Positions 6,416 to 27,043 of a stretch of 29,428 bases of DNA are shown here, piece by piece. The position numbers were made by a program, and so were the translations under genes. This DNA is from a virus. Positions within the stretch are counted from its first letter, which is position 1, and each line of letters starts with the position of its first letter. Where the stretch lies: positions 1 to 29,428 of IMG/VR virus record IMGVR_UViG_3300031251_000977; one strand, 5' to 3'. A model generated the notes under the pieces. It saw nothing but the letters and a program-made list of their open reading frames with translations, made no database searches and was not told the origin of the DNA.

Positions 6416-6421
6416 TTGACA
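6416..6421 (+). promoter_or_regulatory. TTGACA start-proximal motif (terminase small)
   Basis: TTGACA lies exactly 16 bases before ATG 6438. Here no upstream gene ends nearby, so the hexamer is not a by-product of a stop codon. The 16-base spacer has only a weak purine stretch (gggtgg). Confidence 0.5.
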
Positions 6422-6437
6422 GCCGGGTGGCTTCCAA

Positions 6438-6839
6438 ATGGAGGCCTGGACGATCGCTCAATGGGCTCGTGAGGTCGGAGGAGACCGGCACGAGTGGCAA
6501 AAACGCGTCGCTGCCGCCGAGATCGCACCGGTCGGAGAGTCCACCGGTAAGGCATCCGGCGGGAAAACCTACCGCGTCCGGGACCTCTTCAACGTCGCAG
6601 TCGGCGGCGACATCGAGCGTGAGCGTCTCCGCAAAACCAAAGAGGAAGCCGACAAGCTCGCCCTCGGCAACGCCAAGATGCGCGGCGAGCTGGTGGAAAT
6701 CGAGGTGGTCAAGCGCCTCGGCGAGCGCGTGTTCGTCGCCCTGCGCAACCGCATTCTCAACCTGCCGCTGCTCGACGAGGAAAAGGACAAATGCCTCCGT
6801 GAGATCCTCGCGCTTGGCGAGATCGACTGGAGCAAATGA
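6438..6839 (+). CDS. Terminase small subunit (Nu1-like)
   Basis: A 133-residue protein with an N-terminal winged-helix-like DNA-binding segment (MEAWTIAQWAREVGGDRHEW ... KTYRVRDLF) followed by a long charged helix RERLRKTKEEADKLALGNAK around 67-86 and GELVEIEVVKRLGERVFVALRNRI. This is the layout of lambda Nu1-type small terminases: HTH for packaging-site recognition, then a helical assembly region. Its length is somewhat shorter than lambda Nu1. It is followed by the large terminase in an ATGA overlap. It should recognise the packaging site, probably in the gap just upstream, and load the large subunit. Confidence 0.85.
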   Translation: MEAWTIAQWAREVGGDRHEWQKRVAAAEIAPVGESTGKASGGKTYRVRDLFNVAVGGDIERERLRKTKEEADKLALGNAKMRGELVEIEVVKRLGERVFVALRNRILNLPLLDEEKDKCLREILALGEIDWSK

Positions 6840-8755: not shown

Positions 8756-8761
8756 TTGACA
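8756..8761 (+). promoter_or_regulatory. TTGACA start-proximal motif (gpW-like gene)
   Basis: The hexamer begins immediately after the terminase TGA (8753-8755) and ends exactly 16 bases before ATG 8778. The spacer also ends in a Shine-Dalgarno-like ggcgggga, so the two signals coexist here. Confidence 0.5.
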
Positions 8762-8777
8762 TACACGACGGCGGGGA

Positions 8778-9311
8778 ATGACCCGCTGTCTTCCCGCCCA
8801 ACTCGTCACCGGCGATACCTGGAAATGGTCGCAGTCCCTCTGCGACTACAGCCCCAATCAGGGATGGGGTCTGGCCTATTCCTTCCGCGGCGGCTCACAG
8901 CTCGACGTCACCGGTACGCCGAATGGCTCCGGCGGCTGGGATTTCACCGTTTCTGCCGGCGACACGGCCGCGCTCGTGCCCGGCCAATACGCCTGGCAGG
9001 CGAGGGTAGAGCTTGATGGCGAGACCTACACGGCTGCCTCCGGAGTGATCACCCTGAAGGCCGGCCTAGCCTCGGTCACCACCCCGTTCGATACCCGCAC
9101 CTCGGCCGAGAAGCAGCTCGCCGCCGTTGAGTCCGCCTTGGAGTCCCTACTCAGCAAGCAGAACGCGTCCGTCTCCTTTGGAGACCAGAGCTACTCCCTC
9201 CAGGACGTCGAGAAGCTGATGAACGTACGCGATCGCCTCCGCACCCAGGTAGCAGCGGAGAACGGCAACAGCAGGCCCAAGCAGATCCTCGTCACCTTCA
9301 CGCGCCCATGA
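8778..9311 (+). CDS. Head-tail joining protein, gpW-like C-terminus with N-terminal beta domain
   Basis: A 177-residue protein between large terminase and portal, the position of lambda W. Residues about 10-95 look like an immunoglobulin-like beta-sandwich (GDTWKWSQSL, LAYSFRG, VPGQYAWQARVELDGETYTA). Residues about 108-165 match the gpW pattern: a helix SAEKQLAAVESALESLL, a beta hairpin NASVSFGDQSYSL, and a second helix VEKLMNVRDRLRTQVAAENG. Lambda gpW is only about 68 residues and lacks the N-terminal part. The last bases overlap the portal start (ATGA). It probably stabilises the packaged head at the portal; the beta domain may add a surface or binding function. Confidence 0.65.
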   Translation: MTRCLPAQLVTGDTWKWSQSLCDYSPNQGWGLAYSFRGGSQLDVTGTPNGSGGWDFTVSAGDTAALVPGQYAWQARVELDGETYTAASGVITLKAGLASVTTPFDTRTSAEKQLAAVESALESLLSKQNASVSFGDQSYSLQDVEKLMNVRDRLRTQVAAENGNSRPKQILVTFTRP

Positions 9312-10765
9312 GCATCCTGTCCCGCATTTCCGACTACTTCCGCCGCGGCAAGGCCACGCGCAATTTCGATGCCGGCGTCTCCAACCGCCTCACGGCGGAT
9401 TGGATCGTGGCGCCACTCTCCGCGGATGCCGCGATTGCCGGCGGGCGGCTGAATACCATCCGCAACCGCACCCGCGATCTGGAGCGGAACAACGAATGGG
9501 TGCGCGGCTTCCTGCGGATGCTGGAAAACAATGTCCTCGGGGAAAAAGGCATCGGCCTTCACATGCGGATCAAGGACCCGACCGGCAAGCCCGATCTGCT
9601 TGCCAATGACATGGTGCTGTCCGCCTTCATCCAGTGGGCGAAAACCGGTAACTGCACGCTGGATCGCCGTAGCTCGTGGCGGGATGTGCAGCGAATCGTC
9701 CTGCGCACCATCGCCCGCGATGGCGAGGTGCTCGTGCGCCGTGTCCGCACCAAGCTCGGCCTGCGTCTGCAGGTCATCGAGCCTGACTTGCTCGATCAGG
9801 ATTACAGCGGCCTCTCGCCGGATGGGAATGAGATCCGCTTCGGCGTCGAGTTCGATTCCGACCGGGCCGTGGTCGCTTACTGGCTCCTCGGCAGCCATCC
9901 GGGAGACCTGATGTATTACAAGCAGCCGACCTATCAGCGCATCAGGATCCCCGAGAATGAAATTTACCATCTCTTCATTCCAGATCGCGTGGACCAGACG
10001 CGCGGTTTCCCCTGGCTGATCGCCTCCATGAAGGGGCTCCGGATGCTCGATGGCTACGCCGAGGCCGAGCTGGTCGCCGCCCGCACCGCTGCCAGCAAGA
10101 TGGGCTTCTTCACCAAGAAGACGCCGGATGGCTACGCCGGTTATACCGGGAAGAATGGCGATCTTTCCATGAACGCCTCGCCCGGCGCGATCGAGGAATT
10201 GCCCGAGGGTGTCGAGTTTAAGGACTGGAATCCCACGCACCCGAATAGCGCTTACAATGACTTCGTGAAGGGTCGGCTCCGGGGCGTCGCCACCTCGCTT
10301 GGTATCTCCTACAACACCCTCGCCAGCGATCTGGAGAACGTGAATTTCTCCTCGATCCGCGCCGGACTGCTGGAAGAGCGTGAGCTTTGGAAAGCCCTTC
10401 AGCGCTGGCTGATCGAACACTTTTGCGAGCTCGTCTTCACCGACTGGCTTGAACTCGAATTGCTCCGCGGTGCCCTACCGCTGCCGTTCGCGAAGATGTG
10501 GAAGTTCAACATGCCGGAGTTCCACGGCCGCCGCTGGTCTTGGGTCGATCCGGAGAAGGATGTGAATGCGAACATTCTCGCCGTGCGCGCCGGCTTCACC
10601 TCCCAACGGCGGGTCATCGCCGAACAGGCCGGAGATATCGAAGACGTCTTTGAAGATCAGCAGGCCGATCAGGCCCTCGCGAAATCGAAGGGGCTCGTCT
10701 TCGTGGAGCTCACGGATCCGGCGAAGCCCGGCCCGCCGCCACTCGTGAAGCCAACCGCCGGTTGA
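9308..10765 (+). CDS. Portal protein (lambda gpB family)
   Basis: A 485-residue protein with the lambda-type portal signature: an N-terminal RTRDLERNNEWVRGFLRMLENNVLG block at 54-78 (RaRdl.rNn..a.g...), DGEVLVRRVRTK, VIEPDLLDQDY, EIYHLFIPDRVDQTRGFPWL at 218-237, and ASKMGFFTKK. The length fits the family (lambda B is 533 residues). It would form the dodecameric ring at the head vertex. It starts inside the end of the gpW-like gene (ATGA), and its TGA lies inside the next TTGACA. The C-terminus (KPGPPPLVKPTAG) is disordered. Confidence 0.96.
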   Translation: MSILSRISDYFRRGKATRNFDAGVSNRLTADWIVAPLSADAAIAGGRLNTIRNRTRDLERNNEWVRGFLRMLENNVLGEKGIGLHMRIKDPTGKPDLLANDMVLSAFIQWAKTGNCTLDRRSSWRDVQRIVLRTIARDGEVLVRRVRTKLGLRLQVIEPDLLDQDYSGLSPDGNEIRFGVEFDSDRAVVAYWLLGSHPGDLMYYKQPTYQRIRIPENEIYHLFIPDRVDQTRGFPWLIASMKGLRMLDGYAEAELVAARTAASKMGFFTKKTPDGYAGYTGKNGDLSMNASPGAIEELPEGVEFKDWNPTHPNSAYNDFVKGRLRGVATSLGISYNTLASDLENVNFSSIRAGLLEERELWKALQRWLIEHFCELVFTDWLELELLRGALPLPFAKMWKFNMPEFHGRRWSWVDPEKDVNANILAVRAGFTSQRRVIAEQAGDIEDVFEDQQADQALAKSKGLVFVELTDPAKPGPPPLVKPTAG

Positions 10766-10767
10766 CA
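10762..10767 (+). promoter_or_regulatory. TTGACA start-proximal motif (protease-capsid gene)
   Basis: The portal stop codon is embedded in this hexamer (gGTTGACAa). It is 18 bases before the GTG at 10786 that I choose as the start, the widest spacing of the set. The TTG of the hexamer is itself in frame and could be mistaken for a start codon. Confidence 0.45.
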
Positions 10768-10785: not shown

Positions 10786-12924
10786 GTGAAACGACGCCCC
10801 TCCAATCCCTTCACGCGGTCACAGCCACAAGTGGTGGTCCAGACTCGCGCCTTGCCTCAGTCCGGGGAGACCTTCACCCGTGATTTTGAGATCGATTCGA
10901 ACGCGATCGATATCCAGGCGCGCACCGTCGAGCTGTCGTTTTCGAGCGAGGCCCCGGTCGAGCGCTGGTTCGGCACGGAGATCCTCGATCACGGCCCGGG
11001 CGCGGTTCGCATGGCTCGGATCAACAACGGTGGACCACTACTGTTAGGCCACGATCTGGACGATCAGATCGGCGTCACCGTCACCGCCAGCATCAATAGC
11101 AAGACCAAGCGTGGCAAGGCCACCGTGCGCTTCAGCCGCTCCGCGCATGCGGAAGAGATCTTCCAGGACGTGATCGATGGTATCCGCCGATTGGTTTCGG
11201 TCGGCTACCGCATTTTCAAAACGGTAACCGAGACCAATGGCGGCGTGGAAACCGTCCGGGCGGTCGATTGGGAGCCCTATGAGATCAGCATCGTCCCGGT
11301 GCCTGCTGACGATTCCGTGGGAGTCGGCCGCAGTGATTCGAATCCCGCGAACCATAACCCCAATTCCACTTCGTTTATGAATCGCGCCCAACTCATCGCG
11401 GCCCTTCGCGCCCGCGGCATTTCCTTCTCGGACTCCGCAACCGATGCGGAGCTTCAAGGCCTCCTCAATCGCTCGCTTGCGACCGATCCCGTCGATCCTC
11501 CGACCCCGGCGGATCCTCCGACCCCGCCCAATCGCGGCCCCCCCGCCGAGCCCGTCACTGGCCAGCGTAACTTGGCCACGAATCCGACAGCGGTCGTGGT
11601 CAGTGAAGCGCCGCCCGCACCCTCTGGTGATTACACCTCCCATGCGAACCGGGCCATTGCCGCGGAGCGCCAGCGTTGCGCGGACATCCGCACGACTGCC
11701 GATGCTCTCACCCGCAACGGCATCACGATGGATGCCCAGCGCGCCATCAATGACGGCGTGTCCGCCGCTGAGTTCCAGCGCCAGGCCTTCGAGGCCCTGA
11801 CCACCCGCCAGACCTCCTACGCCCCCGGGCGTGTGAGTGAAGGCGAGCGTCGGGATCTCGACCGCTTCTCGATCGTCCGCGGCCTCGGCCTGCTCATGCA
11901 GGGCCGTGCGCTCGACGGCATCGAAGGGGAACTGCAGGTGGAAGCCCAGAATGAAGCCCGCGCCAGCGGCATCAATCTGGAAGGTAACTTCCATATTCCG
12001 TCGATCGTGCTCAATCACGGCCGCCGCGACATGACGGCCACCGGTACCACCTCCACCACCGGTGACCAGGGCGGCACTACGATCCAGACCAACCTTGGTT
12101 CGTTCATCGAACTGCTCTACGCCCGCCTCGTGCTCCGAGGCCTCGGCGCACAGGTCCTGACCGGCCTGGTGGGGAACATCGACCTGCCACGCTTCGTCAC
12201 CGGCGCCACCGTGGCCAACGCGACGGAAAATGCCACGGCTACCGAATCCAACCCCACCACCGGCCTGCTCAGCTTGCGCCCGCACCGCGCCACTACCTTC
12301 GTGGAAGTGTCGCAGCAGCTCATGACGCAGAGCAGCCAGTCCGTGGAAGGTTTGGTCCGCAATGACCTGCTGACCGCCCTGGCGCTCCTCATGGAAGCCC
12401 GTGCGATCAATGGTTCCGGTTCGTCCAATCAGCCGCTTGGCATCCTTGGCACCTCCGGTATCGGTTCCGTGGTCGGTGGCACCAATGGTGCGGCTCCTGA
12501 CTGGAGCCACATCGTCGCCCTTGAAACGGCCGTCGCCACCAGCAATGCCGACATCGGCTCCCTTGGCTATCTCACCAATACCAAGGTCCGCGGCACGCTC
12601 AAGAACACCGCCAAGATGGGCAATACCACCGGCCTGGCCGTGTGGGGAGAAGGCTCCACCCCGCTCAATGGCTACGGCGCGGCCGTTACCACCCAGGTCC
12701 CGAGCGGACTCACCAAGGGCACCGCCTCCGGTAACTGCTCCGCGATCATCTTCGGAAACTTCTCCGACCTGATCCTCGCGCAGTGGGGCGGCATCTCGAT
12801 CATGGCGAACCCCTACATCAAGGATACCGAGGGGCTCGTCCGCCTCACGATCAATGCCTACCACGATAACATCGCGCGCCGCCCGGCCTCGTTCTCGGCG
12901 ATGCTCGATGCCCTCGCCGGTTAA
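10786..12924 (+). CDS. Prohead protease fused to HK97-type major capsid protein
   Basis: A 712-residue fusion. The N-terminal part (to about 190) is an S78/U35-type prohead protease: TFTRDFEI, ILDHG, LLLGHDLDDQIG with likely catalytic His89, RLVSVGYRIF with likely Ser138, and EPYEISIVPVPAD. A linker rich in Pro, Asp and Thr follows, and from about 285 comes the HK97-fold capsid protein: a helical scaffold-like delta segment (ANRAIAAERQRCADIR...), a cleavage-prone stretch near 350-370, then LRPHRATTFVEVSQQLM and LLMEARAINGSGSSNQPLGIL. An in-frame ATG at 11377 (MNRAQLIAALRARG) could allow separate production of the capsid part. The start is GTG 10786 (MKRRPSNPF), not TTG 10762. The protease should cleave itself and the scaffold part during head maturation. 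Confidence 0.92.
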   Translation: MKRRPSNPFTRSQPQVVVQTRALPQSGETFTRDFEIDSNAIDIQARTVELSFSSEAPVERWFGTEILDHGPGAVRMARINNGGPLLLGHDLDDQIGVTVTASINSKTKRGKATVRFSRSAHAEEIFQDVIDGIRRLVSVGYRIFKTVTETNGGVETVRAVDWEPYEISIVPVPADDSVGVGRSDSNPANHNPNSTSFMNRAQLIAALRARGISFSDSATDAELQGLLNRSLATDPVDPPTPADPPTPPNRGPPAEPVTGQRNLATNPTAVVVSEAPPAPSGDYTSHANRAIAAERQRCADIRTTADALTRNGITMDAQRAINDGVSAAEFQRQAFEALTTRQTSYAPGRVSEGERRDLDRFSIVRGLGLLMQGRALDGIEGELQVEAQNEARASGINLEGNFHIPSIVLNHGRRDMTATGTTSTTGDQGGTTIQTNLGSFIELLYARLVLRGLGAQVLTGLVGNIDLPRFVTGATVANATENATATESNPTTGLLSLRPHRATTFVEVSQQLMTQSSQSVEGLVRNDLLTALALLMEARAINGSGSSNQPLGILGTSGIGSVVGGTNGAAPDWSHIVALETAVATSNADIGSLGYLTNTKVRGTLKNTAKMGNTTGLAVWGEGSTPLNGYGAAVTTQVPSGLTKGTASGNCSAIIFGNFSDLILAQWGGISIMANPYIKDTEGLVRLTINAYHDNIARRPASFSAMLDALAG

Positions 12925-13368: not shown

Positions 13369-13676
13369 GCGTCCACGATGACTTGAAACAGGCCTACCTC
13401 GAACTGCGCTCGCAGTTTGGGGTAGGCATTACGTTTGGCACGGCCCCCGAAATCCAGGCGCTTGTCAGTGAAGCCGCCATGTCCCGTGAGCTGGTCACCG
13501 GCGGTGCCCAGGAGTCGGTGGACTATATCGCCCGCGTCCTGATCGAGGATCTTCCCGCAGAGCCTGTGTTAGGCTCGCCAGTGACCTACAGCGGCCTGCC
13601 CTTGAAGATTCACAAGCGCCTCAATCCCCAGAATCACCCCATCGGGGAATTCATGCTGATCTCGACCCGCCGTTAA
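13365..13676 (+). CDS. Probable head-tail connector (103 aa)
   Basis: GTG 13365 overlaps the previous stop. The protein (MSVHDDLKQAYLELRSQFG...) has an N-terminal helix, a beta-rich middle (ESVDYIARVLIEDLP) and a C-terminal strand pattern LKIHKRLNPQNHPIGEFMLI. Size and position match the small stopper or connector proteins (lambda FII position) that join the head to the tail. The family is not recognised with certainty. Its TAA overlaps the TAA of the convergent gene on the other strand in the palindrome TTAA at 13673-13676. Confidence 0.65.
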   Translation: MSVHDDLKQAYLELRSQFGVGITFGTAPEIQALVSEAAMSRELVTGGAQESVDYIARVLIEDLPAEPVLGSPVTYSGLPLKIHKRLNPQNHPIGEFMLISTRR

Positions 13677-14326
13677 AGCTCGCCGATCAGCTCCAACAGC
13701 GGAGCCAGATCATCCTTGAGCGCCGCCAACTGATCCTCATCCATGCCCGGCATGGTCTTCCGCAGCACGGTCACCAGCCGCGAGAGATGCGGGATGTGGT
13801 TGTCATGCCCCACGGCCGTTCCACGCTGCACAATCTCCTCCGGAGGCACGATCCGTGGCCGGTCACTGGCGATGCGGATCGAGGCCCGCAGCCTTCTAAC
13901 CGACACCGGCCGCTCGTCGTTCACTCGTGGCGACACGAGCGAACCCCACTCGTCACGCTTCTCTTTCGGCAGCGGCGCAAGCGCCCGATGGTGTTCGAAA
14001 GACAGCAGCGGATTGCGTTCCTCAATCGGAATCGCCCTGGCCACCCAAGCATAGTTGTGCAGCGTCGTGCGGTCCAGACCGGTCGAATCGATCGCCTGAT
14101 CATAGGCCTCGCTCGCATCCTTGCGGAACTTCCGGTCGCCGAAAATCAGCCAGTCACCGATACAGAACGCGGCAGCCCGCAGGCCGGTCCCAAATTGCTT
14201 GCCCATGTCCCGCCACGATTCGAACGGCGTGTCGGCAGGGAGGGCGAGGCCAAGCGAAAGGGCGGCGGAATCGGCGGCTTGAATCGGGAGCATGCCGTCC
14301 CCCATCACGTCAAACGGGAGAATCAT
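13673..14326 (-). CDS. LmbU-like / ParB-HTH-like DNA-binding regulator
   Basis: On the minus strand, ATG at 14326-14324 overlaps the TGA of the next minus-strand gene (ATGA), which fixes the start; the 217-residue protein begins MILPFDVMGDGML. The core at 56-130 (CIGDWLIFGDRKF ... EAYDQAIDSTGLDRTTLHNYAWVARAIP ... NPLLSFEHHRALAPLPKEKRDEW) matches proteins related to LmbU and to the helix-turn-helix part of ParB-type regulators, which bind DNA. The rest is charged, with a C-terminal helical tail (DEDQLAALKDDLAPLLELIGEL). It runs against all surrounding structural genes, so it probably has its own promoter and regulates phage genes. The target is unknown. Confidence 0.75.
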   Translation of the reverse strand: MILPFDVMGDGMLPIQAADSAALSLGLALPADTPFESWRDMGKQFGTGLRAAAFCIGDWLIFGDRKFRKDASEAYDQAIDSTGLDRTTLHNYAWVARAIPIEERNPLLSFEHHRALAPLPKEKRDEWGSLVSPRVNDERPVSVRRLRASIRIASDRPRIVPPEEIVQRGTAVGHDNHIPHLSRLVTVLRKTMPGMDEDQLAALKDDLAPLLELIGEL

Positions 14327-14703
14327 GATTTCGCGATGCTTCGTAGCCTGGCCACCCGGCACCGTGCCCGGTTTTTCACCGGCCGCATCGCTCTAACCGG
14401 CGGGATGCCGAAGGTATCGCACAGCTCCACACAGCGCTTGGAGACCGCCGCGCGGGTCACTCCGTGAGTGCGGGCGATGTCCGCCATCGAAGACCCCTGG
14501 TAGCCGATCCCGGTCACCAGCGCCATGCATTCCACCCCCAGCGCCGGGTGCGGATCGGCTAACAGTTGACCCACGATCCGCCTTACCATCACCAGCGCGG
14601 AACGCTCCTGGCGCGCTCCCGTCTCGTCCTCCTCCGGCCGCGCTTGCGTCACCGGCACCCGTTGCCCGTTCTCCCAGCCGCTCCGCGCTGCTTGACACTC
14701 CAT
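14323..14703 (-). CDS. Small helix-turn-helix regulator
   Basis: A 126-residue minus-strand protein. Residues 44-105 (IVGQLLADPHPALGVECMALVTGIGY, then SMADIARTHGVTRAAVSKRCVELCDTFGI) form a helical domain with a sigma-region-4-like helix-turn-helix at about 72-94. The C-terminus is basic (RPVKNRARCRVARLR). The first 38 residues are poorly structured, and an alternative start at ATG 14589 is possible. With the longer form only 9 bases separate its start from the divergent start at 14713, so each gene's promoter would lie inside the other. It is coupled to the LmbU-like gene by an ATGA overlap, and the pair probably act together as a control switch. Confidence 0.7.
   Translation of the reverse strand: MECQAARSGWENGQRVPVTQARPEEDETGARQERSALVMVRRIVGQLLADPHPALGVECMALVTGIGYQGSSMADIARTHGVTRAAVSKRCVELCDTFGIPPVRAMRPVKNRARCRVARLRSIAKS
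14692..14697 (+). promoter_or_regulatory. TTGACA start-proximal motif (gene at 14713)
   Basis: The hexamer lies 15 bases before ATG 14713 and inside codons 3-4 of the longest form of the divergent minus-strand gene (TGT CAA there). Its presence here, despite overlapping another gene's codons, argues for selection. A GGAG-like sequence (gcggaga) is also present. Confidence 0.45.
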
Positions 14704-14712: not shown

Positions 14713-15432
14713 ATGGCTGCAAAGGTCCGCGGACTCAATAGTAAAGCGATCTTACAGGTCGAGGAGGACGGTGATATCGACCGCTACGGCGTCCACACGA
14801 TCACCCGCGTCGAGATGGTCCCCGCCGAGCTCTTCGGAGACCTCCTCCGCCGCGTCGGCACGCTGCATCCTCGGTGGACTTCCATGGCGCTTTCAAAGGC
14901 CACCTGGAAGCTCGTGGAGGCCGGCACGTTCTATCGGATCACCTACATTTATGAGGGCTTCATTGGCTCGATTCCCGATGCTACCTATGAGTTCACCGGC
15001 GCACTCAGTGAGGAGCCAATTCAGACGCATGTGAATTTCGCGGACTTCGCGGGCACGCCTGCGTCCCCCTTGAATGGTGCCATCTTCCTGGATCCTGATA
15101 CCGGAAAGCCCACCACGGACAACGCCAAGGGCGTGTTCTTCGAGTTCGCCGCGATGAGTGGCGATGCGACGAACGATCTCGCGGGCGTCTCCAGCTACGA
15201 AAGCCGCGGTGGCACCTTCACGGAAGTCTCGTTTGCCACCAACCGCCCGAGCGACCTTGGCAATCTAGGCACCATCGCTACTCCGTCCGGTCCCCATCCC
15301 TCCGGTGGTGCCGGCCGGAACTACCTCTATGCCGAGATATCCTACCGCCAACGCGGCTTCATTTTCGAAATCCGCAAGAGCTGGAAACTCTCCGGCCGCA
15401 ACGGATGGAACACCAAGATCTATAACTCCTGA
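14713..15432 (+). CDS. Virion protein of unknown function (239 aa)
   Basis: I start at ATG 14713 (MAAKVRGLNSKAILQVEEDG) because the longer frame is antisense to the HTH gene. The protein is mostly beta (YGVHTITRVEMVP, FYRITYIYEGFIGS, FFEFAAMSG, YLYAEISYRQRGFIFEIRKSW) with no membrane segment. It is the first of three adjacent genes (to 17394) with short spacing and no recognised family. Position between head completion and tail genes suggests a virion component, perhaps of the tail tip or an adsorption structure, since no other tip genes are found. The function is not known. Confidence 0.7.
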   Translation: MAAKVRGLNSKAILQVEEDGDIDRYGVHTITRVEMVPAELFGDLLRRVGTLHPRWTSMALSKATWKLVEAGTFYRITYIYEGFIGSIPDATYEFTGALSEEPIQTHVNFADFAGTPASPLNGAIFLDPDTGKPTTDNAKGVFFEFAAMSGDATNDLAGVSSYESRGGTFTEVSFATNRPSDLGNLGTIATPSGPHPSGGAGRNYLYAEISYRQRGFIFEIRKSWKLSGRNGWNTKIYNS

Positions 15433-15435
15433 TCC

Positions 15436-17394: not shown

Positions 17395-19003
17395 TCCCTT
17401 CGCCCCGCCGCCCGGGCACGTGCCGCTGCCACTTGCCAAAAAACTTCCGGCCAATCGGCCGGCCATGGTCCGCATGCGGCTGAAGGGGTCAGCCAACGAG
17501 GGTCATCTTTACCGTGGCCAGCACCTTCACACGCCATGCATCGGGTGCGGGGGAAGGGCGCCATCCAGTTCGTCATCCACCGGGATTTTTCGTCCAACGA
17601 TTTCCGGGGAAGTCTCCAAGTCTCTGAAAACCCTCGTCTACACGCTTCGTTACGGTGAGCCGGATTGGATCCTCGCCTGTGCCCCAACCCTTGATGTGTG
17701 GTGCTCCCGGCACCATCTCCCGTTGAAAGTGGTCTCCACCTGGCCGGAGGACTACCCCAGTTCGAAATTCGTTTATGTGGACCTCTTGCGCGAGTTTCTC
17801 GCCAGCACGGCTGATCGGGCACTCTTCATCGATGCGGACGTCTACATTCATCCGCTCGCGCCGATGATGGCGCTTGAAGCACCCGGACTGCACGCTCGCG
17901 CCGATCTTCCAGCCTCGACCCCACGATGGGCTGACTGGTTGGCACGTCACTATACCGGGCAGGACTTCTCAACCCACACTTACCGGCAGGCCGGCGTCTG
18001 GTCCTGTGATCGGGAGTCGGCTCGGATGATCCTGGCAGAGGCTGATTCTTCCTCAATGATCAAGGGATTCATGGAGCAACACCAGTGGAACGTGTGGCTC
18101 GCCCGGGCTGCAGCGAAGGGGATGCCGCTAGTGACGCTGCCCGATGGCTGGAATCGCCTGCCCCATCGTGAGCATGATCCTGCCTGGTTCTTTCACCTGG
18201 CTGGATCGACCAAAATGCAGGACCTGCAGTCCGTACGCGATCGCCATCAGCTTCCGGCGGTTCCCGAACCGGTGAGGCGGATTGAGAATCCTCCAGACGA
18301 TCCCCTGGCCATCGTCTACCCTTGGCTTTCAACTGCCGCTGATTGGGACGAACTTCGGTATTCCCTTCGATCCGTGGAAGCTCATTTTACTGATCAGGAG
18401 TGCCCGATCTACATCCTCGGCGACAAGCGGCCCGATTGGTTGGCAGCGAAGAGCGGCCGCGTCAGATTCATTGAGTCTCCGACTTACGCCGCCGCCCTCG
18501 AAACCGGACTTCAGCTCGCGCGACAAGTCATCTGGATGAACGATGACATTTATCTGCTCAAAGAGTGCTCGGCTGAATACCTTGGCACGCCACTGGTTCG
18601 AAAAACCGACCGCGTTGGAGACGCTCTCCGGTGGGCGCATGGGCGGAATGCCTATCGCCGTGGCAAGGCTCGTGTTGTGCTCGCGCTCCATCATCTTGGC
18701 ATGGATCGGGTCGCTGATTTTTCGACCCATACCCCCTATTTGTATGAAAGGGGAAAGGCTATCCAGACATTGGAGGCTATCGGGCTGTTTCATAAGATAC
18801 CCTTTGAAACCGCCTACTATAATCACCATCGGATCACTGGCCGGGATCAGGGTTCGGCCAAAACGGATAACCTGACCAATGCGGCTGCCCGCTATCTCAA
18901 TCACAGTGGCCGCACTCTCAACGCCGTGCTGAAGCTGGGCATTCAACGCCTGTTTCCCACCCCGTCCCCATGGGAGACGGTTGACGCCCCCGCGTCCCCA
19001 TGA
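17384..19003 (+). CDS. Two-domain glycosyltransferase / Stealth-like transferase
   Basis: I start at ATG 17384 (METDPFAPPP), overlapping the previous gene by 11 bases; ATG 17357 or 17465 are alternatives. Numbering from 17384 (539 aa), residues about 80-260 form a GT-A-like domain: KFVYVDLLREFL, then ALFIDADVYIHP with the DxD-type DAD at 150-152. The second half contains WDELRYSLRSVEAHF at 320-334, PIYILGDKRPDWL and VIWMNDDIYLL with NDD at 386-388, then a DFSTHTPYL motif near 445. These match the CR2/CR3 features of Stealth-type sugar-phosphate transferases. A membrane segment is absent. It could glycosylate virion proteins or alter host surface sugars; the acceptor is unknown. Finding it inside a phage tail region is unusual. 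Confidence 0.75.
   Translation: METDPFAPPPGHVPLPLAKKLPANRPAMVRMRLKGSANEGHLYRGQHLHTPCIGCGGRAPSSSSSTGIFRPTISGEVSKSLKTLVYTLRYGEPDWILACAPTLDVWCSRHHLPLKVVSTWPEDYPSSKFVYVDLLREFLASTADRALFIDADVYIHPLAPMMALEAPGLHARADLPASTPRWADWLARHYTGQDFSTHTYRQAGVWSCDRESARMILAEADSSSMIKGFMEQHQWNVWLARAAAKGMPLVTLPDGWNRLPHREHDPAWFFHLAGSTKMQDLQSVRDRHQLPAVPEPVRRIENPPDDPLAIVYPWLSTAADWDELRYSLRSVEAHFTDQECPIYILGDKRPDWLAAKSGRVRFIESPTYAAALETGLQLARQVIWMNDDIYLLKECSAEYLGTPLVRKTDRVGDALRWAHGRNAYRRGKARVVLALHHLGMDRVADFSTHTPYLYERGKAIQTLEAIGLFHKIPFETAYYNHHRITGRDQGSAKTDNLTNAAARYLNHSGRTLNAVLKLGIQRLFPTPSPWETVDAPASP
18981..18986 (+). promoter_or_regulatory. TTGACG variant of the start-proximal motif
   Basis: TTGACG lies 13 bases before ATG 19000 and codes for part of the end of the glycosyltransferase (V-D). 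It is a five-of-six match with shorter spacing, so it is a weaker case. Confidence 0.3.
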
Positions 19004-19797
19004 TCTCGGCCAAAGTCGATTGCTCCGGCATGTTGGATGCCATGGGAGACTTCGCGAAGCTCACCCGCAAGGACATGCAGGTAGAGATGCGCGCCCAGGC
19101 TGGCATGCTCATCGGTCACGTGATCGCCCTCACGCCCCCGGGAGGTGGAAAAGGCCAGGCAATGAGCATTCAGGGCGGGGTGAACATCAGCGCCAAGCAG
19201 CACGGTGAAAAGAGCATCGCGGCCGATATCGCCCGGATATTCCCGACCACCAAGGCCTCCGAAGCCGAGGTCCGCGGCTGGATCAAGAACGGCGTGAAAG
19301 TCAGCATCGGCAGCAACAAGCGCGCCGTGCTGGTGAAGGACATCGCCTTCTCGATTGCAAAGATGAAACAAGTCCACCAGCTCGCCCGGAATCCAAGGTC
19401 CGGACGCGTCACGGTTGCCGGGGGCGACAACTGCGCATTCACCACCAGCGCCCTGCTCAAGCAATACACCAAGATCGAGCAGGCGAAGGCCGGCAAGCTC
19501 GCCGCTGGCTGGCTGGCAGCGGCGGATGAGCTGCGTACCTCGAAGCGCTACATGCCGGCGTGGATCACCCGCCAGGGGCGACGCCCGGGCGGCGTGGAAG
19601 TCATGGAGCGGGACGCCGGCACCGTCATCCACATGCACAACGATCAGACCTGGTTCCCAGGCGATATGACCGTTCGCGTCCAGTTCGCCCTTGATCGCCG
19701 GGAGAAAGGCATCCGCAAGGCGATGGACGCGATCATCGAGCGCCGCGGCAAGGCTGCCGAGAAAAAGCAGGGCGCCGGCGGCGTGAAGGGCGGTTGA
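19000..19797 (+). CDS. HK97 gp10/lambda Z-like tail or neck protein
   Basis: ATG 19000 overlaps the glycosyltransferase TGA (ATGA). The 265-residue protein begins with FAKLTRKDMQVEMRAQAGMLIGHVIALTPP at 18-47, the pattern of gp10-like neck and tail-completion proteins (helix, then ...v...TP), and continues with a longer helical middle than the usual 120-190 residues. The C-terminal portion is Lys/Arg-rich with helices (DRREKGIRKAMDAIIERRGKAAEKKQ). In the lambda order it would correspond to Z. It should cap or join the tail to the neck; the assignment rests on the N-terminal pattern and position. Confidence 0.65.
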   Translation: MISAKVDCSGMLDAMGDFAKLTRKDMQVEMRAQAGMLIGHVIALTPPGGGKGQAMSIQGGVNISAKQHGEKSIAADIARIFPTTKASEAEVRGWIKNGVKVSIGSNKRAVLVKDIAFSIAKMKQVHQLARNPRSGRVTVAGGDNCAFTTSALLKQYTKIEQAKAGKLAAGWLAAADELRTSKRYMPAWITRQGRRPGGVEVMERDAGTVIHMHNDQTWFPGDMTVRVQFALDRREKGIRKAMDAIIERRGKAAEKKQGAGGVKGG

Positions 19798-19799
19798 CA
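19794..19799 (+). promoter_or_regulatory. TTGACA start-proximal motif (gene at 19816)
   Basis: The preceding gene's TGA is embedded in the hexamer (GGT TGA CAA). It ends exactly 16 bases before ATG 19816, and the spacer has no Shine-Dalgarno-like purine run, so the motif is the only visible signal here. Confidence 0.5.
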
Positions 19800-20706: not shown

Positions 20707-23073
20707 GTGATCCCGCAACTCCCCACCTCGATCCCGACCAGCTTCACGCCCGATGATCCCGCCTTGCATCGGTTGATCAGGGCGGGCGTCATTTCTTCGG
20801 TCCGGAATTTTAGTTTCGCCTCTTCTCTGCCATCCGGCGCCACTCTCACCCGTGCGACTACCGGCACCCGTGTGAATTCCTCAGGCGTCGTCGTCACCGA
20901 GGCCATCGACGTTGCCCGCTTCGATTACGATCCCGGCACCCACGCCGCTCTCGGCCTGCTGGTCGAGCCATCCGTCACCAATCTCTGCCTCCAGTCGAAT
21001 TCCTTCGATAGCGCTACCTGGCAGAAATCCCACGGTAGTGCGGCAGCCAATACCGTTGCCTCGCCCTCCGGTGCCACCGATGCCGACACGCTGACCCTCT
21101 CGACCACCGCCTACGACCTTTACCAGGCATTTACCGGCCTTACCCCCGGCGCGTTCTACACCCTCGCCCTCTGGGTCAAGCTCGGCACCGCTACCAACTT
21201 CGCCACGGTGGTCAATGATACCACGGCCTGGAATACCATCGCCGGATCCAAGACCTGGACTACCGCCGATGGTCTTTCCACCAGCGCCTGGAAGCGAATC
21301 AGCATCCGCATCATCGGCCCTGCCAATGGTAAGCTGAACTTCCACTTGGGTGCCCATGGCAACAGCGATGCTGCCCAGCAAACCGCTGGCACCGTCTTTG
21401 CGTGGGGCGCCATGCTGGTTACTGGCTCCATCGTCCCGCCGGACATCGCCACCACGACAGCAGCGGTCACCCGAGCGGCCGATATCCTCACACTGCCGCT
21501 TTCGGACGGGGTCTATCAAATCACCTACACCGATGCCAATGGTAGCCAGACCGCCGTCGATACCGTCATTTCCGGCCGCGTCTACCCTCGCGATGGCCAG
21601 AACCATCTCACCGGTATCACTGCCCTCCGCCTCCGCGCCGAGCCCGCGCTTGATACCGACGCCGCCACTTTCATCGCCGCCAATGGCCTCCGCCGTGCCG
21701 ATGCCCGTGCCGCCCTCAGTGCCTTCGCCGTCGCGGTAAAAGCCTCCACCGTCCCATGGTCCGACGTCGTCGCCTGGCCGCTTGCCCCGCAGCGGAACAA
21801 GCTCACCGGAGCCACCATGGCCCCCTTCGGAGGCTGGACGGCTGCTCTCCAGACGGCCTCACTCAGCAATGAGTCATTGATGCGCACCGGCGATACCTAC
21901 GGCCTCTACACCAACGACGGAAGCACGACTACCGCGTCCACGATGACGCGAGTCTCCATCCCCTCGCTGCCGCTCTCTGGGGATTACGGCTTCATTCAGC
22001 TCTGCCGCCCCCTCGGCAATCCGGCGGCCAATCGGGCCACCTATCAGGTGGGCAACATCTACGCCCTCCAGACCGGCTCCTGGACGAATTCGCTGCTGAC
22101 CGACTTCGATTCCACCTTTACGCGCTCCTCGTGGTCCTCGCAGTGCAATGCGTATGGTCATGTCATGATCGGCTCTGGCCCGGCCGTAATGCTGGCCGAA
22201 TACGGCAGCCGCCGTACGATTGCGGCCAACGATCACGGCACATTTACCGCCTATCTCGGCTCAAAGGCTGTCGCGGGAGCCGTTGGCAATAGCGACACCA
22301 CCGGCTACCCGGAAATTATTCTCGAAGGAGCGGTGCTTCTCAACAACGCCACCGAAGCGAAGTGGAACACCCTCGCCGCCATCGCGAAGGCGACCCTCGC
22401 CGTTCAGGACAATAGACAACAAAATTTCCTGATCCAGCTCGGCCAGAGCCAGCCGGAAATCAACATGGCCATGCACTTCGATCGGCAAATTGCCATCGAT
22501 TCCGATTGGCGCGGGCGAATGACGGTGGACTATTATTCCCGCAGCAATCAGCCCCTTTCCCAATGGATCGGGGCTGCACCATACGCACGCACCGGCTACT
22601 ACCTCACCGATGTTTACAAGGGCGATGGAACATCCCTCATGGAGCTGCAAATTGCCCATGAAACACGCAGCAAGCGCCGCATCGTTCTTCTGCTTTGGCA
22701 CGGTGAAGCGGGTGCTGGTTACGTGCAATCCGGAACCGATGCGGACAAGGATTTTCAGGCCAACACCTATCAGGATCAACTGAATGCCTTTCTCGGCTTC
22801 ATCCGAGCGGACGTCGCGGCGATGGGGATGGAACTGAAAATCATCCTGTGCCAGATCGCCTGGATCACCGCCACCGGAAACGACCTGACCCGCACCAACA
22901 CGGTGCGCGCCGCCCAGGCCGCTGTCGTCGCTGCCAATCCCGCCGACATGGTCCTGGTCGATACCACTCAATTCGAGCGCAATACCACTGATAACATGCA
23001 CCTTGATGGAGTGGGTCGCCAACAGTTCGTCTCCACCGTCTGGCCTATCGTGAAATCCCTGTTGCCGCCCTGA
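20707..23073 (+). CDS. Tail fibre/spike with C-terminal SGNH (SASA) esterase domain
   Basis: A 788-residue receptor-binding-type protein starting at GTG 20707. The N-terminal part has a phage particle-attachment/lectin-like segment: HAALGLLVEPSVTNLCLQSN at 79-98 and AWKRISIRI..., a jelly-roll pattern common in fibres. A middle part (about 300-570) is a lectin/LamG-like beta region. The C-terminus (about 574-788) has the SGNH hydrolase blocks of sialate O-acetylesterase-like (SASA) enzymes: GQSQ at 579-582 with Ser581, WHGE at 664-667, and DNMH with Asp762 and His765 (DxxH). It likely binds and de-acetylates a host surface polysaccharide. The substrate is unknown. Confidence 0.85.
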   Translation: MIPQLPTSIPTSFTPDDPALHRLIRAGVISSVRNFSFASSLPSGATLTRATTGTRVNSSGVVVTEAIDVARFDYDPGTHAALGLLVEPSVTNLCLQSNSFDSATWQKSHGSAAANTVASPSGATDADTLTLSTTAYDLYQAFTGLTPGAFYTLALWVKLGTATNFATVVNDTTAWNTIAGSKTWTTADGLSTSAWKRISIRIIGPANGKLNFHLGAHGNSDAAQQTAGTVFAWGAMLVTGSIVPPDIATTTAAVTRAADILTLPLSDGVYQITYTDANGSQTAVDTVISGRVYPRDGQNHLTGITALRLRAEPALDTDAATFIAANGLRRADARAALSAFAVAVKASTVPWSDVVAWPLAPQRNKLTGATMAPFGGWTAALQTASLSNESLMRTGDTYGLYTNDGSTTTASTMTRVSIPSLPLSGDYGFIQLCRPLGNPAANRATYQVGNIYALQTGSWTNSLLTDFDSTFTRSSWSSQCNAYGHVMIGSGPAVMLAEYGSRRTIAANDHGTFTAYLGSKAVAGAVGNSDTTGYPEIILEGAVLLNNATEAKWNTLAAIAKATLAVQDNRQQNFLIQLGQSQPEINMAMHFDRQIAIDSDWRGRMTVDYYSRSNQPLSQWIGAAPYARTGYYLTDVYKGDGTSLMELQIAHETRSKRRIVLLLWHGEAGAGYVQSGTDADKDFQANTYQDQLNAFLGFIRADVAAMGMELKIILCQIAWITATGNDLTRTNTVRAAQAAVVAANPADMVLVDTTQFERNTTDNMHLDGVGRQQFVSTVWPIVKSLLPP

Positions 23074-23077
23074 CCTG

Positions 23078-23083
23078 TTGACA
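23078..23083 (+). promoter_or_regulatory. TTGACA start-proximal motif (gene at 23100)
   Basis: The hexamer follows the fibre stop by four bases and is exactly 16 bases before ATG 23100. The spacer (gcgccatcccccgatt) is pyrimidine-rich with no Shine-Dalgarno sequence at all. Confidence 0.5.
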
Positions 23084-23099
23084 GCGCCATCCCCCGATT

Positions 23100-23360: not shown

Positions 23361-23782
23361 ACATTCGCCCCGCGATCATCGAGGCGGTGGCAGCATGGCT
23401 GGCCAATGGCTACACCGGCCCGGTATCGATCCGGAGCGAAGTCGCCGGCGAGCTGCTCGCGCCACCCTATGGCGTGGTCCGCATCGGCACGGCCGCGCCG
23501 CTGGCCCCCGGTGAACCGGTCTGGGAAGTCACCGTGCTGATCGCGGTCTTTCACGATTACGATTTCAGCACCGCTGCCGATGCCGAGGCCCAATCCGGCG
23601 TGCTCTTCGCGAAGATGGACGAGAAGGATGCAGATGGTGGCGACCAGTACGCCGCCTTCGTGGAATTCTGCGAAGGCCGCGGCCTGGCGGTCTCGATGAT
23701 GCAGCCGGTGGAATCGAACTTCAGCACGACTGAGGACCGCTGGCAAAACGTGCTCGGCGTGCAGATGATCGCCTGTTTGTGA
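23357..23782 (+). CDS. Tail-terminator-like protein (141 aa)
   Basis: ATG 23357 overlaps the previous stop. The protein starts with a helix (RPAIIEAVAAWLANGY), followed by PVWEVTVLIAVFHDYDF and a C-terminal strand pattern (RWQNVLGVQMIACL), consistent with the alpha/beta fold and length of siphovirus tail terminators (lambda U position). It comes right before the tail-tube-like gene, as expected. The sequence similarity is weak, so the assignment leans on gene order. Confidence 0.6.
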   Translation: MNIRPAIIEAVAAWLANGYTGPVSIRSEVAGELLAPPYGVVRIGTAAPLAPGEPVWEVTVLIAVFHDYDFSTAADAEAQSGVLFAKMDEKDADGGDQYAAFVEFCEGRGLAVSMMQPVESNFSTTEDRWQNVLGVQMIACL

Positions 23783-23783
23783 T

Positions 23784-23789
23784 TTGACT
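23784..23789 (+). promoter_or_regulatory. TTGACT variant of the start-proximal motif
   Basis: TTGACT begins one base after the TGA at 23780-23782 and is 15 bases before ATG 23805. The TTG is itself in frame with the gene and could be read as a start, so this site is ambiguous. Confidence 0.35.
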
Positions 23790-23804
23790 CCGTTTGCCCG
23801 GGAT

Positions 23805-24200
23805 ATGTCAGCGAGCATCAAAGGCAGAATAGTATCGTTTGGGATCCCGGGTAGCCTCGCTACCAAGGCCCACACCGTGACCACCTCCGGCATCCTTCAG
23901 GGAGCCTCCGTCAATGGCGGCGGGGAAACCGGCACCGTCCAGGACGAGGGGAACGACACCGTTACCCGCATCGATTCCAAGGCGGAGAACAAGATCAACT
24001 TCGAAATTCTCTGCGAGCCGGATACCGAGATGCCCGCCAAGGGGCAGGAAGTGACCGGCCTCGGCACGATCGACGGGATCGACTTCGACGCCGGCCGCGT
24101 TTTCGTGGACGATCCGAAAACCGACTACAGCAACAACGCGGTGAAGAAGATGTCCTTCGCCTGCACGCATTACCCGATGATGCCGGCTGACACGGATTGA
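23805..24200 (+). CDS. Tail-tube-like protein (131 aa)
   Basis: I choose ATG 23805 (MSASIKGRIVSFGIPGS) over the in-frame TTG 23784. The protein is beta-rich (RIVSFGIPGSLATKAHTVTTSG, TVTRIDSKAENKINFEILCEP, KGQEVTGLGTIDGIDF) with an order resembling short tail-tube proteins. It lies between the terminator-like gene and the tail chaperone genes, which is where the major tail protein belongs. At 131 residues it is shorter than lambda V (246) but comparable to minimal tube proteins. Function is inferred from fold pattern and context. Confidence 0.6.
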   Translation: MSASIKGRIVSFGIPGSLATKAHTVTTSGILQGASVNGGGETGTVQDEGNDTVTRIDSKAENKINFEILCEPDTEMPAKGQEVTGLGTIDGIDFDAGRVFVDDPKTDYSNNAVKKMSFACTHYPMMPADTD

Positions 24201-24205
24201 TCGTC

Positions 24206-24640
24206 ATGACCAATCTCGAAGTCATCGCGGCGGCGGCTGAGGAAGCCGGCCGCCGCACGCCTCCTACCGTGCTGGAAGCCTTCGCGGGTGCCACACCGAG
24301 AGTCTTCGGCCGCCCGATCCGCCCGGTCTCGCTCGGGGCTTGGATCGCGTTTGAAATGATCGGCCATCCTTTCGTGATGGGGAACGAGGCCGTCGAGATG
24401 TATGACTTCGCCTGTGCCCTCTACATCCTGAGCGCTCCGTCCGAGGAAGTGCTCGATGCGATCCAGGCCGGAACCTTCCGCCACCAGGTGCTGCAGGTGG
24501 CCGATGCCGTGCAGGTGACCGACCTTGAGGTTTCCCTCGATCTGCTGAAAAGCCACCTCGCCAAGGCCTTTGGCACGGCCATGCCGATGCGCCAACCCGG
24601 CGAAGCTCAAAAAAAAACGGCGGATTCGGATTCGTCCTGA
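24206..24640 (+). CDS. Tail assembly chaperone, zero-frame product (gpG-like)
   Basis: A 144-residue protein from ATG 24206 (MTNLEVIAAAAEEAG); TTG 24197, overlapping the previous TGA, would add three residues. It is alpha-helical (WIAFEMIGHPFVMGNEAVEMYDFACALYIL, VLDAIQAGTFRHQVLQVADAVQVTDLEVSL), as expected for G-type chaperones. Past the A-run at 24609-24617 the zero frame ends quickly (TADSDSS then TGA). It lies between the tube-like gene and the tape measure, the fixed place of the chaperone pair. It would coat the tape measure during tail assembly, with a minor frameshifted form. Confidence 0.8.
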   Translation: MTNLEVIAAAAEEAGRRTPPTVLEAFAGATPRVFGRPIRPVSLGAWIAFEMIGHPFVMGNEAVEMYDFACALYILSAPSEEVLDAIQAGTFRHQVLQVADAVQVTDLEVSLDLLKSHLAKAFGTAMPMRQPGEAQKKTADSDSS

Positions 24641-24834
24641 CACTCCTCACCAATAGCTGTGCCACCTTCGGCTGGACCGTGCGGTACGTGCTCCATCAGG
24701 TGCCCCTGCTCCAGCTTTTCGCGCTCTCCGCCTGCCACGCCTGGAGCAAGGGCCTCGAACCCGAGGGCGAGAACTACGAGGACCGGGAAATCTGCCGCCT
24801 CGTGACCCTGGCCAAGGCCGCGCGCGTTGACTGA
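24206..24834 (+). CDS. Tail assembly chaperone, -1 frameshifted product (gpGT-like)
   Basis: This is a spliced reading: codons from 24206 to 24616, then a -1 slip and continuation at 24616 with AAC, 72 residues to a TGA at 24832-24834, giving about 209 residues. The added domain reads NGGFGFVLTLLTNSCATFGW, then a helix VRYVLHQVPLLQLFALSACHAW, and ends LVTLAKAARVD. The downstream frame has no well-placed start of its own, so frameshifting is the only plausible way to express it. As in lambda, the minor GT product would bridge the tape measure and tail-tube subunits. The frameshift rate cannot be read. Confidence 0.8.
24610..24616 (+). other. Programmed -1 ribosomal frameshift site (A_AAA_AAA)
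   Basis: Nine A residues at 24609-24617 contain the perfect zero-frame slippery heptamer A AAA AAA (third base of CAA, then two AAA codons). The gene before is in frame 2 and the open frame after is frame 1, exactly a -1 shift. No stop separates them. This is the standard arrangement for siphovirus tail chaperones. Confidence 0.85.
24827..24832 (+). promoter_or_regulatory. TTGACT variant of the start-proximal motif
   Basis: TTGACT covers the end of the GT extension (GTT GAC TGA) and lies 14 bases before the tape measure ATG 24847. The spacer (gatcccgtttcccc) has no purine-rich ribosome site. Confidence 0.35.
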
Positions 24835-24846
24835 TCCCGTTTCCCC

Positions 24847-27036
24847 ATGGCTGGCACCAACATCACCATCGGCGCGGATCTATCGGTTTTCGCCCGCCTC
24901 AAGGCCAAGGCCTCCGAGACCGCCAAGCACGTTCAGGACGCCTTTGTGTTCCGCGCGGGCCAGAAGATCTTCGACGGTGCCCTTGAGCAGGTGAAGAAGC
25001 TCCCTGACGCCATCAAGGAGGCCGTCGACATGGGAGCCAAGCTGCAGGACATGATGAACCGCACCGGGGCCAAGGGGCAAGGCCTCGTGGTCCTCCAGCA
25101 GATGTTCAAGAACGCTGGCAGCGAGGCCGAGGCCGTTCCGAAGGCGCTCAACAAGATGCAGAAGGCCCTCGCCGGCGTGAATGAGGACGGCGAGCCGACC
25201 GGCAAGGTCTTTGCGGAAATCGGCCTGTCCGTTTCCGAGCTGATGGCCATGGATCCCGCCCTGGCATTCGGCAAGGTTGCGGAAGCGATCGCCCGCATCG
25301 AAAACCCAGCTAAGCGCTCGGAAGTGGCGATGCGGATCTTCGGCAAGACCGGCGGCGAGCTCCTCGCGGTGATGAACAATCCCGAGGCCTTCGCGGAAGC
25401 GCAAAAGCAGGTCGGAGGCTTGGCCGATACTCTCACGGAAAATGCCGCCGAGTTCCACCGCCTCAAGGACAATGTCGAGGCCCTGCACATCAAGGTCCTC
25501 CAGCTAGCGGCCGGACTCATGTCGGAGCTGGCACCCGCCCTCGATGGAGTTGGCAAGAAAGCGGCCGGCACGGACCTGACCGGTTATGGCAAAGGCATCG
25601 GCACCGCCGTGAAAGCCACGGTTGAGGGTGGGGCGGATATTGTGAAGTTTCTGGACAAGGTTTCGGGCGTGAATCTGATCCCGGCCATTCATGGCATCGT
25701 ATCCGATCCGGCTGGAGCCATCTCGTCCCAGAATCAGAAAAACCGGGACGATCTCGATCCTGCCAAAATCGCCAAAGAGGCGGTGAAGCCGGAAGACATT
25801 GCGAAAAAGCTCGAGGAGTTGGAAAAGAAGCGGGCTGAGCTGAAAGAGCTGGCGGCTCAGGTGATGAACAATCCCGATGTCGATCCGGCCGAGATCTCCA
25901 ACGCGAAAGTGTCTCTGGAAAGCGGGCTGACTGAACTCGACGCGATCGCCAAGAAGCTCCGCGGGGTGACGAAAGAGCAGATGGCCGCGAACCAGGCAAC
26001 GCGTGACGCCGCGATGGCGGAGGCCGAACATGCAGCCCTGATCGATAAAACTGTGAAGGCTTACGAGGCGCTTTCCCAGCGGCTCGAAGAGGCCAAAAAG
26101 AAGACGATCGAGCGCGCCGGCAATCGTGAATCCTCGGACACCGGGCAGGTGACCGAGGCGCAGATGAATGCCGCGAAAAAGGAGCTGGCCGACGTGCAGG
26201 CGAAGTTCAGCCAGCCGGTCAAGGACCTGATGGGTGCCGGGTTTTCCGGAACTGGCATTGCCGACTCGATCAAGAACGATCCCGATCCGGTTCGCCGCGA
26301 TAGCGACACCAAAAACCTCATTCAGGCGATGGAGGCTGCCGATCGGCTGGCCGATCTCCAGAAAAAGCAGGCAGACGAGGCCGCGAAGCTCGCGAAGAGC
26401 CGTGAGGAAGCCACGGCCACGTACGCGTCGGAACTGGCGATCCTCCAGGCGGATATCGCCGGCAGTTCCGAAAAGGTCCGCCAGCTCAAAAAGGAGGAAG
26501 AAATCCGCACCAAGATTGCCGAACTGGTGAAGGCGGGGATCGCTAACACCTCGGTTGATGGAAAGGACGGCGAGGCTACTCGCCGCGCCAAGGCCCTTGC
26601 CGATGCCAAGGAGCAAGCGGTGCGCGCCGGCGCGGTGCGCGCCGCCCAAGGAACTGTTCTGGATGCGGAAGCCCTTGCCAAGGGCACCCGCAAATCCCTC
26701 GGGATGAAAAACCCTCTCGATTTCTCACCGGAGGAAAAGCGGGCGATGGAAAAGCGTTCCAAGGAACTCTTCGACTCGGGTGGACTATCAAAAGACGAGT
26801 CCGACAATGCCGCCCGGAATGAGAACCTGCTCGATAAGCTCAAGGAGGTTCGGTCCAAGTCGGACGGCCTGCAGGTGCGGTCCTCGGTTAGCGCGGTCGA
26901 TAGCATGCAGCGCATCGGCGGCGGCGGCGGCGTGGCCTCTAACGGTCTCGACTACGCCAGGCAGATGGCCGACTACCAGCGCCAGACGGTGGAGATCCTC
27001 ACGGCCATGCACGGCAAGATGCCGGGGCCGATCTGA
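24847..27036 (+). CDS. Tape measure protein
   Basis: A 729-residue, strongly helical protein (MAGTNITIGADLSVFARLKAKASETA...) directly after the chaperone pair, its expected position. The early part has the common tape-measure segment (DMGAKLQDMMNRTGAKGQGLVVLQQMFKNAGSEAE..., then RIFGKTGGELLAVMNNPEAFAEA, around 60-200). The central and C-terminal parts are long Lys/Glu coiled coils (KKLEELEKKRAELKELAAQ, LADLQKKQADEAAKLAKSREEA). It ends with GGGGG and a helical tail. A rough length rule (1.5 angstrom per residue) would give a tail of about 0.1 micrometre, if most of it is helical. No peptidase domain is seen. Confidence 0.88.
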   Translation: MAGTNITIGADLSVFARLKAKASETAKHVQDAFVFRAGQKIFDGALEQVKKLPDAIKEAVDMGAKLQDMMNRTGAKGQGLVVLQQMFKNAGSEAEAVPKALNKMQKALAGVNEDGEPTGKVFAEIGLSVSELMAMDPALAFGKVAEAIARIENPAKRSEVAMRIFGKTGGELLAVMNNPEAFAEAQKQVGGLADTLTENAAEFHRLKDNVEALHIKVLQLAAGLMSELAPALDGVGKKAAGTDLTGYGKGIGTAVKATVEGGADIVKFLDKVSGVNLIPAIHGIVSDPAGAISSQNQKNRDDLDPAKIAKEAVKPEDIAKKLEELEKKRAELKELAAQVMNNPDVDPAEISNAKVSLESGLTELDAIAKKLRGVTKEQMAANQATRDAAMAEAEHAALIDKTVKAYEALSQRLEEAKKKTIERAGNRESSDTGQVTEAQMNAAKKELADVQAKFSQPVKDLMGAGFSGTGIADSIKNDPDPVRRDSDTKNLIQAMEAADRLADLQKKQADEAAKLAKSREEATATYASELAILQADIAGSSEKVRQLKKEEEIRTKIAELVKAGIANTSVDGKDGEATRRAKALADAKEQAVRAGAVRAAQGTVLDAEALAKGTRKSLGMKNPLDFSPEEKRAMEKRSKELFDSGGLSKDESDNAARNENLLDKLKEVRSKSDGLQVRSSVSAVDSMQRIGGGGGVASNGLDYARQMADYQRQTVEILTAMHGKMPGPI

Positions 27037-27037
27037 A

Positions 27038-27043
27038 TTGACA
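27038..27043 (+). promoter_or_regulatory. TTGACA start-proximal motif (spanin-like gene)
   Basis: The hexamer starts one base after the tape measure stop and ends exactly 16 bases before ATG 27060. Directly after it comes GGGAGG, ten bases from the ATG, so a Shine-Dalgarno-like sequence is also available. Confidence 0.5.

Follow-up and report, generated by a model that had tools for sequence, protein, structure and literature searches.

The window analysed here is the whole of IMG/VR virus record IMGVR_UViG_3300031251_000977 (29,428 bases). It contains the late module of a tailed phage, marked by terminase, portal, head-tail joining and capsid-protease fusion genes. Inside this module, between the capsid gene and gp14713, sits a pair of antisense genes, p126 and p229 (window 13673-14703, - strand). 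Also encoded are a helicase fused to an N6/N4 DNA methyltransferase (936-3599), a 548-aa protein with weak similarity to Stealth CR2 (glycan phosphotransferase-like) that is inserted in the late module and is a possible moron (17357-19003), a tail protein with a C-terminal sialic-acid acetylesterase-like (SASA) domain (20707-23073), and, ahead of the tape measure gene, a probable tail assembly chaperone pair that is likely joined by frameshifting (24197-24834).

The nearest relatives are an IMG/VR contig (G003, capsid 68% identical), a contig within a Verrucomicrobia MAG (G001:C128), G004, and a prophage located at ~494-516 kb of a 1.15 Mb chromosome contig of genome G312, from a Verrucomicrobiota sample. 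A terminase-profile scan identified ~50 more related contigs with terminases 60-70% identical, and these family members range from 42 to 64% GC. One related phage (L295) has a tRNA gene in its late region (17849-17921). The host is assigned to the Verrucomicrobiota on the basis of a single integrated prophage and a single MAG contig.

Table 1. Motif copies before start codons and the antisense gene pair in the window. Nx, number of nucleotides between hexamer and start codon.
Feature	Position	Strand	Spacing and start	Gene and remarks
TTGACA	6416..6421	+	N16 to ATG 6438	Terminase small subunit, 6438-6839 (terS by PHROG 57)
TTGACA	8756..8761	+	N16 to ATG 8778	Head-tail joining protein, 8778-9311; kept in 5/5 reference phages
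TTGACA	10762..10767	+	N18 to GTG 10786	Major capsid/protease fusion, 10786-12924; kept in 5/5 reference phages
TTGACA	14692..14697	+	N15 to ATG 14713	gp14713, 14713-15432; TTGAC(A/T) in 5/5 reference phages
TTGACG	18981..18986	+	N13 to ATG 19000	gp19000
TTGACA	19794..19799	+	N16 to ATG 19816	gp19816; kept in five phages
TTGACA	23078..23083	+	N16 to ATG 23100	
TTGACT	23784..23789	+	N15 to ATG 23805	gp23805; TTGAC(A/T) in 15/15 orthologues
TTGACT	24827..24832	+	N14 to ATG 24847	gp24847, 729 aa; probable tape measure protein, from size and position
TTGACA	27038..27043	+	N16 to ATG 27060	
p126	14323..14703	-		Conserved antisense helix-turn-helix protein; weak sigma-70 region 4/KorA resemblance
p229	13673..14362	-		Conserved antisense partner of p126; weak ParB/Noc/SopB-like helical fold

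Placement of TTGACA in the Window

TTGACA occurs seven times in the window, always on the + strand and always shortly before a start codon (Table 1), and our recount returned the positions and distances reported in the initial annotation. Dinucleotide shuffles gave an expectation of 9.4 copies over both strands. The hexamer is thus not over-abundant, and it is its placement that is unusual, as had been argued. Positions at N13-18 of called starts make up 0.57% of the + strand, so that placement of seven out of seven has P ~2e-16 before correction for 4096 hexamers and for the choice of spacing. TTGACA ranked first for N13-18 placement among all hexamers of the window (7/7) and TTGAC first among 5-mers (10/13), and the control pattern, read backwards, had 0 occurrences in the window. 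The placement of TTGACA before starts is far beyond chance.

The TTGACT and TTGACG copies that had been included as variants fit the pattern, and the two TTGACC that had been set aside (3568 and 14566) do fall outside it. The gp19000 orthologues show either TTGACG or TTGACC at N13-14, and the degenerate copy at 18981 is therefore real. The start codons tested are correct, with N-termini conserved from residue one (e.g., MRLFVDLD / MRLTVDLD / MRFVIDLD). At 10762 the TGA within the hexamer terminates the portal gene, at 19794 it likewise terminates the upstream gene, and the copy at 14692 overlies the 5' end of p126, which is antisense.

Conservation in the Phage Family

The initial annotation had staked its proposal on conservation in related phages and on a spacing peak, and both were found. 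The hexamer is kept at the same genes. In the G312 prophage, all seven TTGACA (7/7) lie 14-15 nt before an ATG or GTG, and the opposite strand of the stretch that was scanned has 0. Among 12 orthologous gene starts compared in five phages, eight groups retained TTGACN at N13-18 in all cases in which the gene was uncoupled, and its flanks were unalignable across the same phages. One of these genes, gp19816, has been relocated in two of the five (it has different neighbours in G001 and G004) and retains the motif. Recombination at module boundaries, an option raised initially, is rejected because the motif travels with this gene when its neighbour changes.

Counted over the family, as related phages and not as independent events and with near-identical contexts collapsed, there are 121 distinct TTGACA on the + strand vs 22 on the - strand, a bias part of which may be due to codon use. 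The spacing from TTGACA to ATG peaks at 13-17 nt with a mode of 15 (30 sites). In the family, TTGACA is the top-ranking hexamer among all 4096 (z 24.7), and TTGACT is third. Capsid relatives outside the family showed no enrichment of TTGACA (rank 3511 and 1912), and other Verrucomicrobiota prophages gave no TTGACA signal.

Beyond the hexamer, the sites of any one phage have no sequence in common. No signal of RNA structure was detected around the motif, and Rfam gave no match apart from the tRNA in L295. A boxA/nut-like RNA and an RNA hairpin were discarded, the former for absence of conserved flanks and the latter for absence of a structure signal. Strand bias of Type III restriction sites was also rejected, as it leaves placement before start codons unexplained.

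Distance to the Start, Gene Coupling, and Late-Only Use

The motif is tied to the start codon and not to the end of the upstream gene. Family-wide, the distance from hexamer to start is 14.0 +/- 1.4 nt vs a standard deviation of 64 nt for stop to hexamer, and the former is uncorrelated with the size of the intergenic gap. Where 40-400 nt separate a gene from its upstream neighbour, 25 sites were at N13-17 and 0 at N18-63. The earlier observation that sites mark non-overlapping genes extends to the whole family: the motif precedes 2 of 102-103 overlapping genes vs 39 of 46 genes with gaps of 16-40 nt, and 42 of 52 when gaps of 9-40 nt are taken (Fisher P 1e-25 vs overlapping genes), with gene calls made by simple ORF and homology rules and some gaps wrong, chiefly the very large ones of the orthologue gap comparison. 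Orthologues of gp23357 lack the motif when coupled (0/9) and have it when a gap of 15-16 nt is present (6/6); at the level of sequence comparison, this group is a natural experiment on coupling.

The hexamer is retained even when it falls within the upstream coding region, as for MCP (gaps of 2-7 nt), and the upstream gene ends at the TGA of TTGAC in 16 of the 76 genes with a motif. Two uncoupled late genes of the window, 12994 and 20707, are without the motif, as are the orthologues of 12994 in GC-rich phages (0/9). Use of the motif is restricted to late genes, with 71 start-linked sites in 163 kb of late region vs 1 in 111 kb of early region (15 phages).

Host Genome and 16S rRNA

A scan of the host genome, proposed initially as a check, showed that the G312 chromosome does not use TTGACA before starts. 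In 460 kb there were 33 TTGACA and no peak at N13-17. The whole-genome count was 57 vs 43 for the reversed control, with 7 of the 57 within the prophage and the remainder near control. The motif was absent from the ribosomal-protein genes and operon sampled. Many Verrucomicrobiota genomes have an excess over the reversed-pattern control, which was not start-linked where checked (the spacing scan of G083 was flat), and a host-wide signal was thus rejected in favor of a composition effect.

Sequences resembling Shine-Dalgarno precede ~5% of genes in G312 and in the family phages vs ~20% in control phages, and the G312 16S tail retains CCUCC. A Shine-Dalgarno site is complementary to the 16S 3' tail and lies 5-9 nt before the start; TTGACA lies 13-18 nt upstream of the start and shows no pairing with GAUCACCUCCUUUCU. 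Pairing of the hexamer with 16S rRNA, which the initial annotation proposed to look for, is not supported: it has no complementarity to the 16S tail, GUCAA is absent from G312 16S, and the only match is UGUCA near the E. coli 434 region, which has five bases and leaves the invariant first T unexplained. In chromosome samples of G312 and G001, C occupies position -1 before 51-53% of host start codons and position -2 before 43-45%, and Shine-Dalgarno sequences before these starts are rare.

Discussion

Judged from sequence, the motif is conserved, oriented, held at a fixed distance from starts, dependent on coupling, restricted to late genes, and absent from host genes. Fixed distance, single strand and coupling dependence together point to mRNA and to initiation. 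A plain ribosome preference is not enough to explain a motif that is missing from host genes and early phage genes alike, and a late, probably phage-encoded factor is proposed for this reason. We therefore favor, with confidence that is evenly balanced, TTGAC(A/T) being a phage-specific translation-initiation element that would act at the RNA level on uncoupled late genes and be read by a possibly phage-encoded factor. In such a mechanism UUGAC(A/U), a linear element centred ~17-20 nt before the start codon, would act in the mRNA of a host mostly without Shine-Dalgarno sequences. Read by a phage-encoded or phage-induced factor, it would recruit the 30S subunit and let ribosomes start on late genes that are beyond the reach of termination-reinitiation from an overlapping upstream gene. 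Of the three options offered by the initial annotation, a translation-initiation signal fits best (fixed spacing, uncoupled genes only), whereas 16S pairing and the recombination option are not supported.

Several observations stand against this reading. The host ribosome apparently ignores the signal on host genes, which calls for an additional factor or for a different explanation, and near-absence from early genes is unusual for a general ribosome signal. The lack of complementarity to the 16S tail and the uncoupled late genes without the motif also count against it. The broader picture is possible but doubtful: a phage lineage may have its own start code, with UUGAC ~14 nt before the start and a late phage factor redirecting the ribosomes of a low-Shine-Dalgarno host to uncoupled viral late genes. 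The motif would then be a virus-specific ribosome-binding site without anti-Shine-Dalgarno pairing.

The antisense pair is a candidate for the trans-acting reader of the motif. Both p126 and p229 are present, alongside the motif, in every family locus covering their region, and outside the family there is a single weak match to p126 (L289) and none to p229; shared ancestry alone could explain this co-occurrence. The start of p126 overlies the TTGACA of gp14713, and ~10 nt separate the starts of these divergent genes. The top PDB matches are weak (E ~0.1-1; KorA/ArdK/sigma4 for p126 and ParB/Noc/SopB for p229) and the names are tentative. The two proteins probably are more like DNA-binding than RNA-binding proteins.

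The pair is central to an alternative that we consider unlikely, in which p126, perhaps with p229, would recognise the asymmetric TTGAC site on DNA, always in the same orientation, and keep late genes from being transcribed, either in the lysogen or in the early phase of infection. Its co-occurrence with the motif would fit. Single orientation with respect to transcription (seen here in the family strand bias), location at gene boundaries, phage specificity, asymmetry and the existence of temperate members are shared with the stoperators of cluster A mycobacteriophages such as L5 and Bxb1 (PMC9283540, PMC6550527). The likeness, suggested in the initial annotation, is closer than first apparent: the coding strand of Bxb1 (L376) reads CTTGAnnCGTAAC in 31 of 33 sites, in the same orientation as here. 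This strand carries CTTGA(CA); read in the direction of transcription, the stoperators begin CTTGA, and in several of them its TGA doubles as the stop codon of the gene upstream. However, a DNA-bound repressor has no reason to keep its distance to the start codon within the narrow range observed, and in Bxb1 the distance from site to next start varies widely (mean 50, sd 45 nt), with six sites located inside genes. Cluster A stoperators, where a bound repressor stops elongation, are near-identical sites of ~13 bp, loosely positioned and found in all regions (in both arms of Bxb1), whereas TTGAC has 5-6 bp, with no identity past the hexamer within any phage, and is late-only. A site of this length without wider identity is insufficient to single out the phage in a 7.5 Mb genome.

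Phage late promoters, such as those of T4, recur before many late genes, and their distance to the start codon is not fixed. A late promoter is quite unlikely here, although TTGAC resembles those of T4 in being recurrent and late-specific with a short core. A phage factor would direct RNA polymerase to start transcription just before or at the start codon, downstream of TTGAC, and produce near-leaderless late mRNAs. A need for near-leaderless late mRNAs would account for the fixed distance, the gap rule would also be satisfied by a single signal for each translation unit, and the motif is late-only and phage-only. However, in GC-rich phages the bases separating hexamer from start are themselves GC-rich (logo), which is poor for strand opening, and there is neither a -10-like AT-rich zone nor a second upstream box. 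No RNA polymerase and no clear sigma factor were found. In addition, a gap change of 20 nt, as in gp23357, should not require a new promoter. A sigma-70 promoter was discarded, and the initial dismissal of a -35 box was right: a TATAAT-like box is absent ~17 nt after TTGACA, and transcription would start inside genes with conserved N-termini.

Processing of late polycistronic mRNA by a nuclease cutting at UUGAC to leave short leaders would also predict fixed distance and a single strand, but with no nuclease candidate and no structured element it is very unlikely. An origin by chance, or as a side effect of composition or codon use, has negligible probability; the hexamer is indeed not over-abundant in the window, but the uncorrected placement probability and independent recurrence in ~50 relatives of widely different GC have already refuted it.

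The rules by which bacteria without Shine-Dalgarno sequences choose their start codons are poorly understood. In the present case, the late genes of a virus of such bacteria are labelled by a signal that is exact, conserved and movable and that is not in use in host genes. If the signal acts on translation, it would provide a compact handle on non-Shine-Dalgarno initiation and on its possible take-over by viruses. If it acts on DNA, it would represent a system of the stoperator or late-promoter type that is linked to start codons and found outside mycobacteria. No description of a TTGACA signal in Verrucomicrobia or in translation was found in the open-access literature searched.

For the translation-initiation element favored here, known systems offer partial parallels. 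In Bacteroidota, initiation without Shine-Dalgarno sequences involves a Kozak-like A-3 and an anti-SD sequestered by bS21 (PMC6847099, PMC9976891). The G312 host similarly has mRNAs mostly without Shine-Dalgarno sequences despite CCUCC in its 16S, but the Bacteroidota preferences are diffuse, single-base and genome-wide and come with low structure, whereas here the signal is a phage-only hexamer. The "epsilon" enhancer of T7 gene 10, a short element in phage mRNA, raises initiation from a position upstream of the zone where ribosomes usually dock (PMC8748333), and TTGAC would be comparable if it acts in mRNA as proposed. Unlike epsilon, which is A/U-rich, works with Shine-Dalgarno and tolerates being moved, TTGAC is exact in sequence, fixed in position, and placed, without Shine-Dalgarno, before about ten genes.
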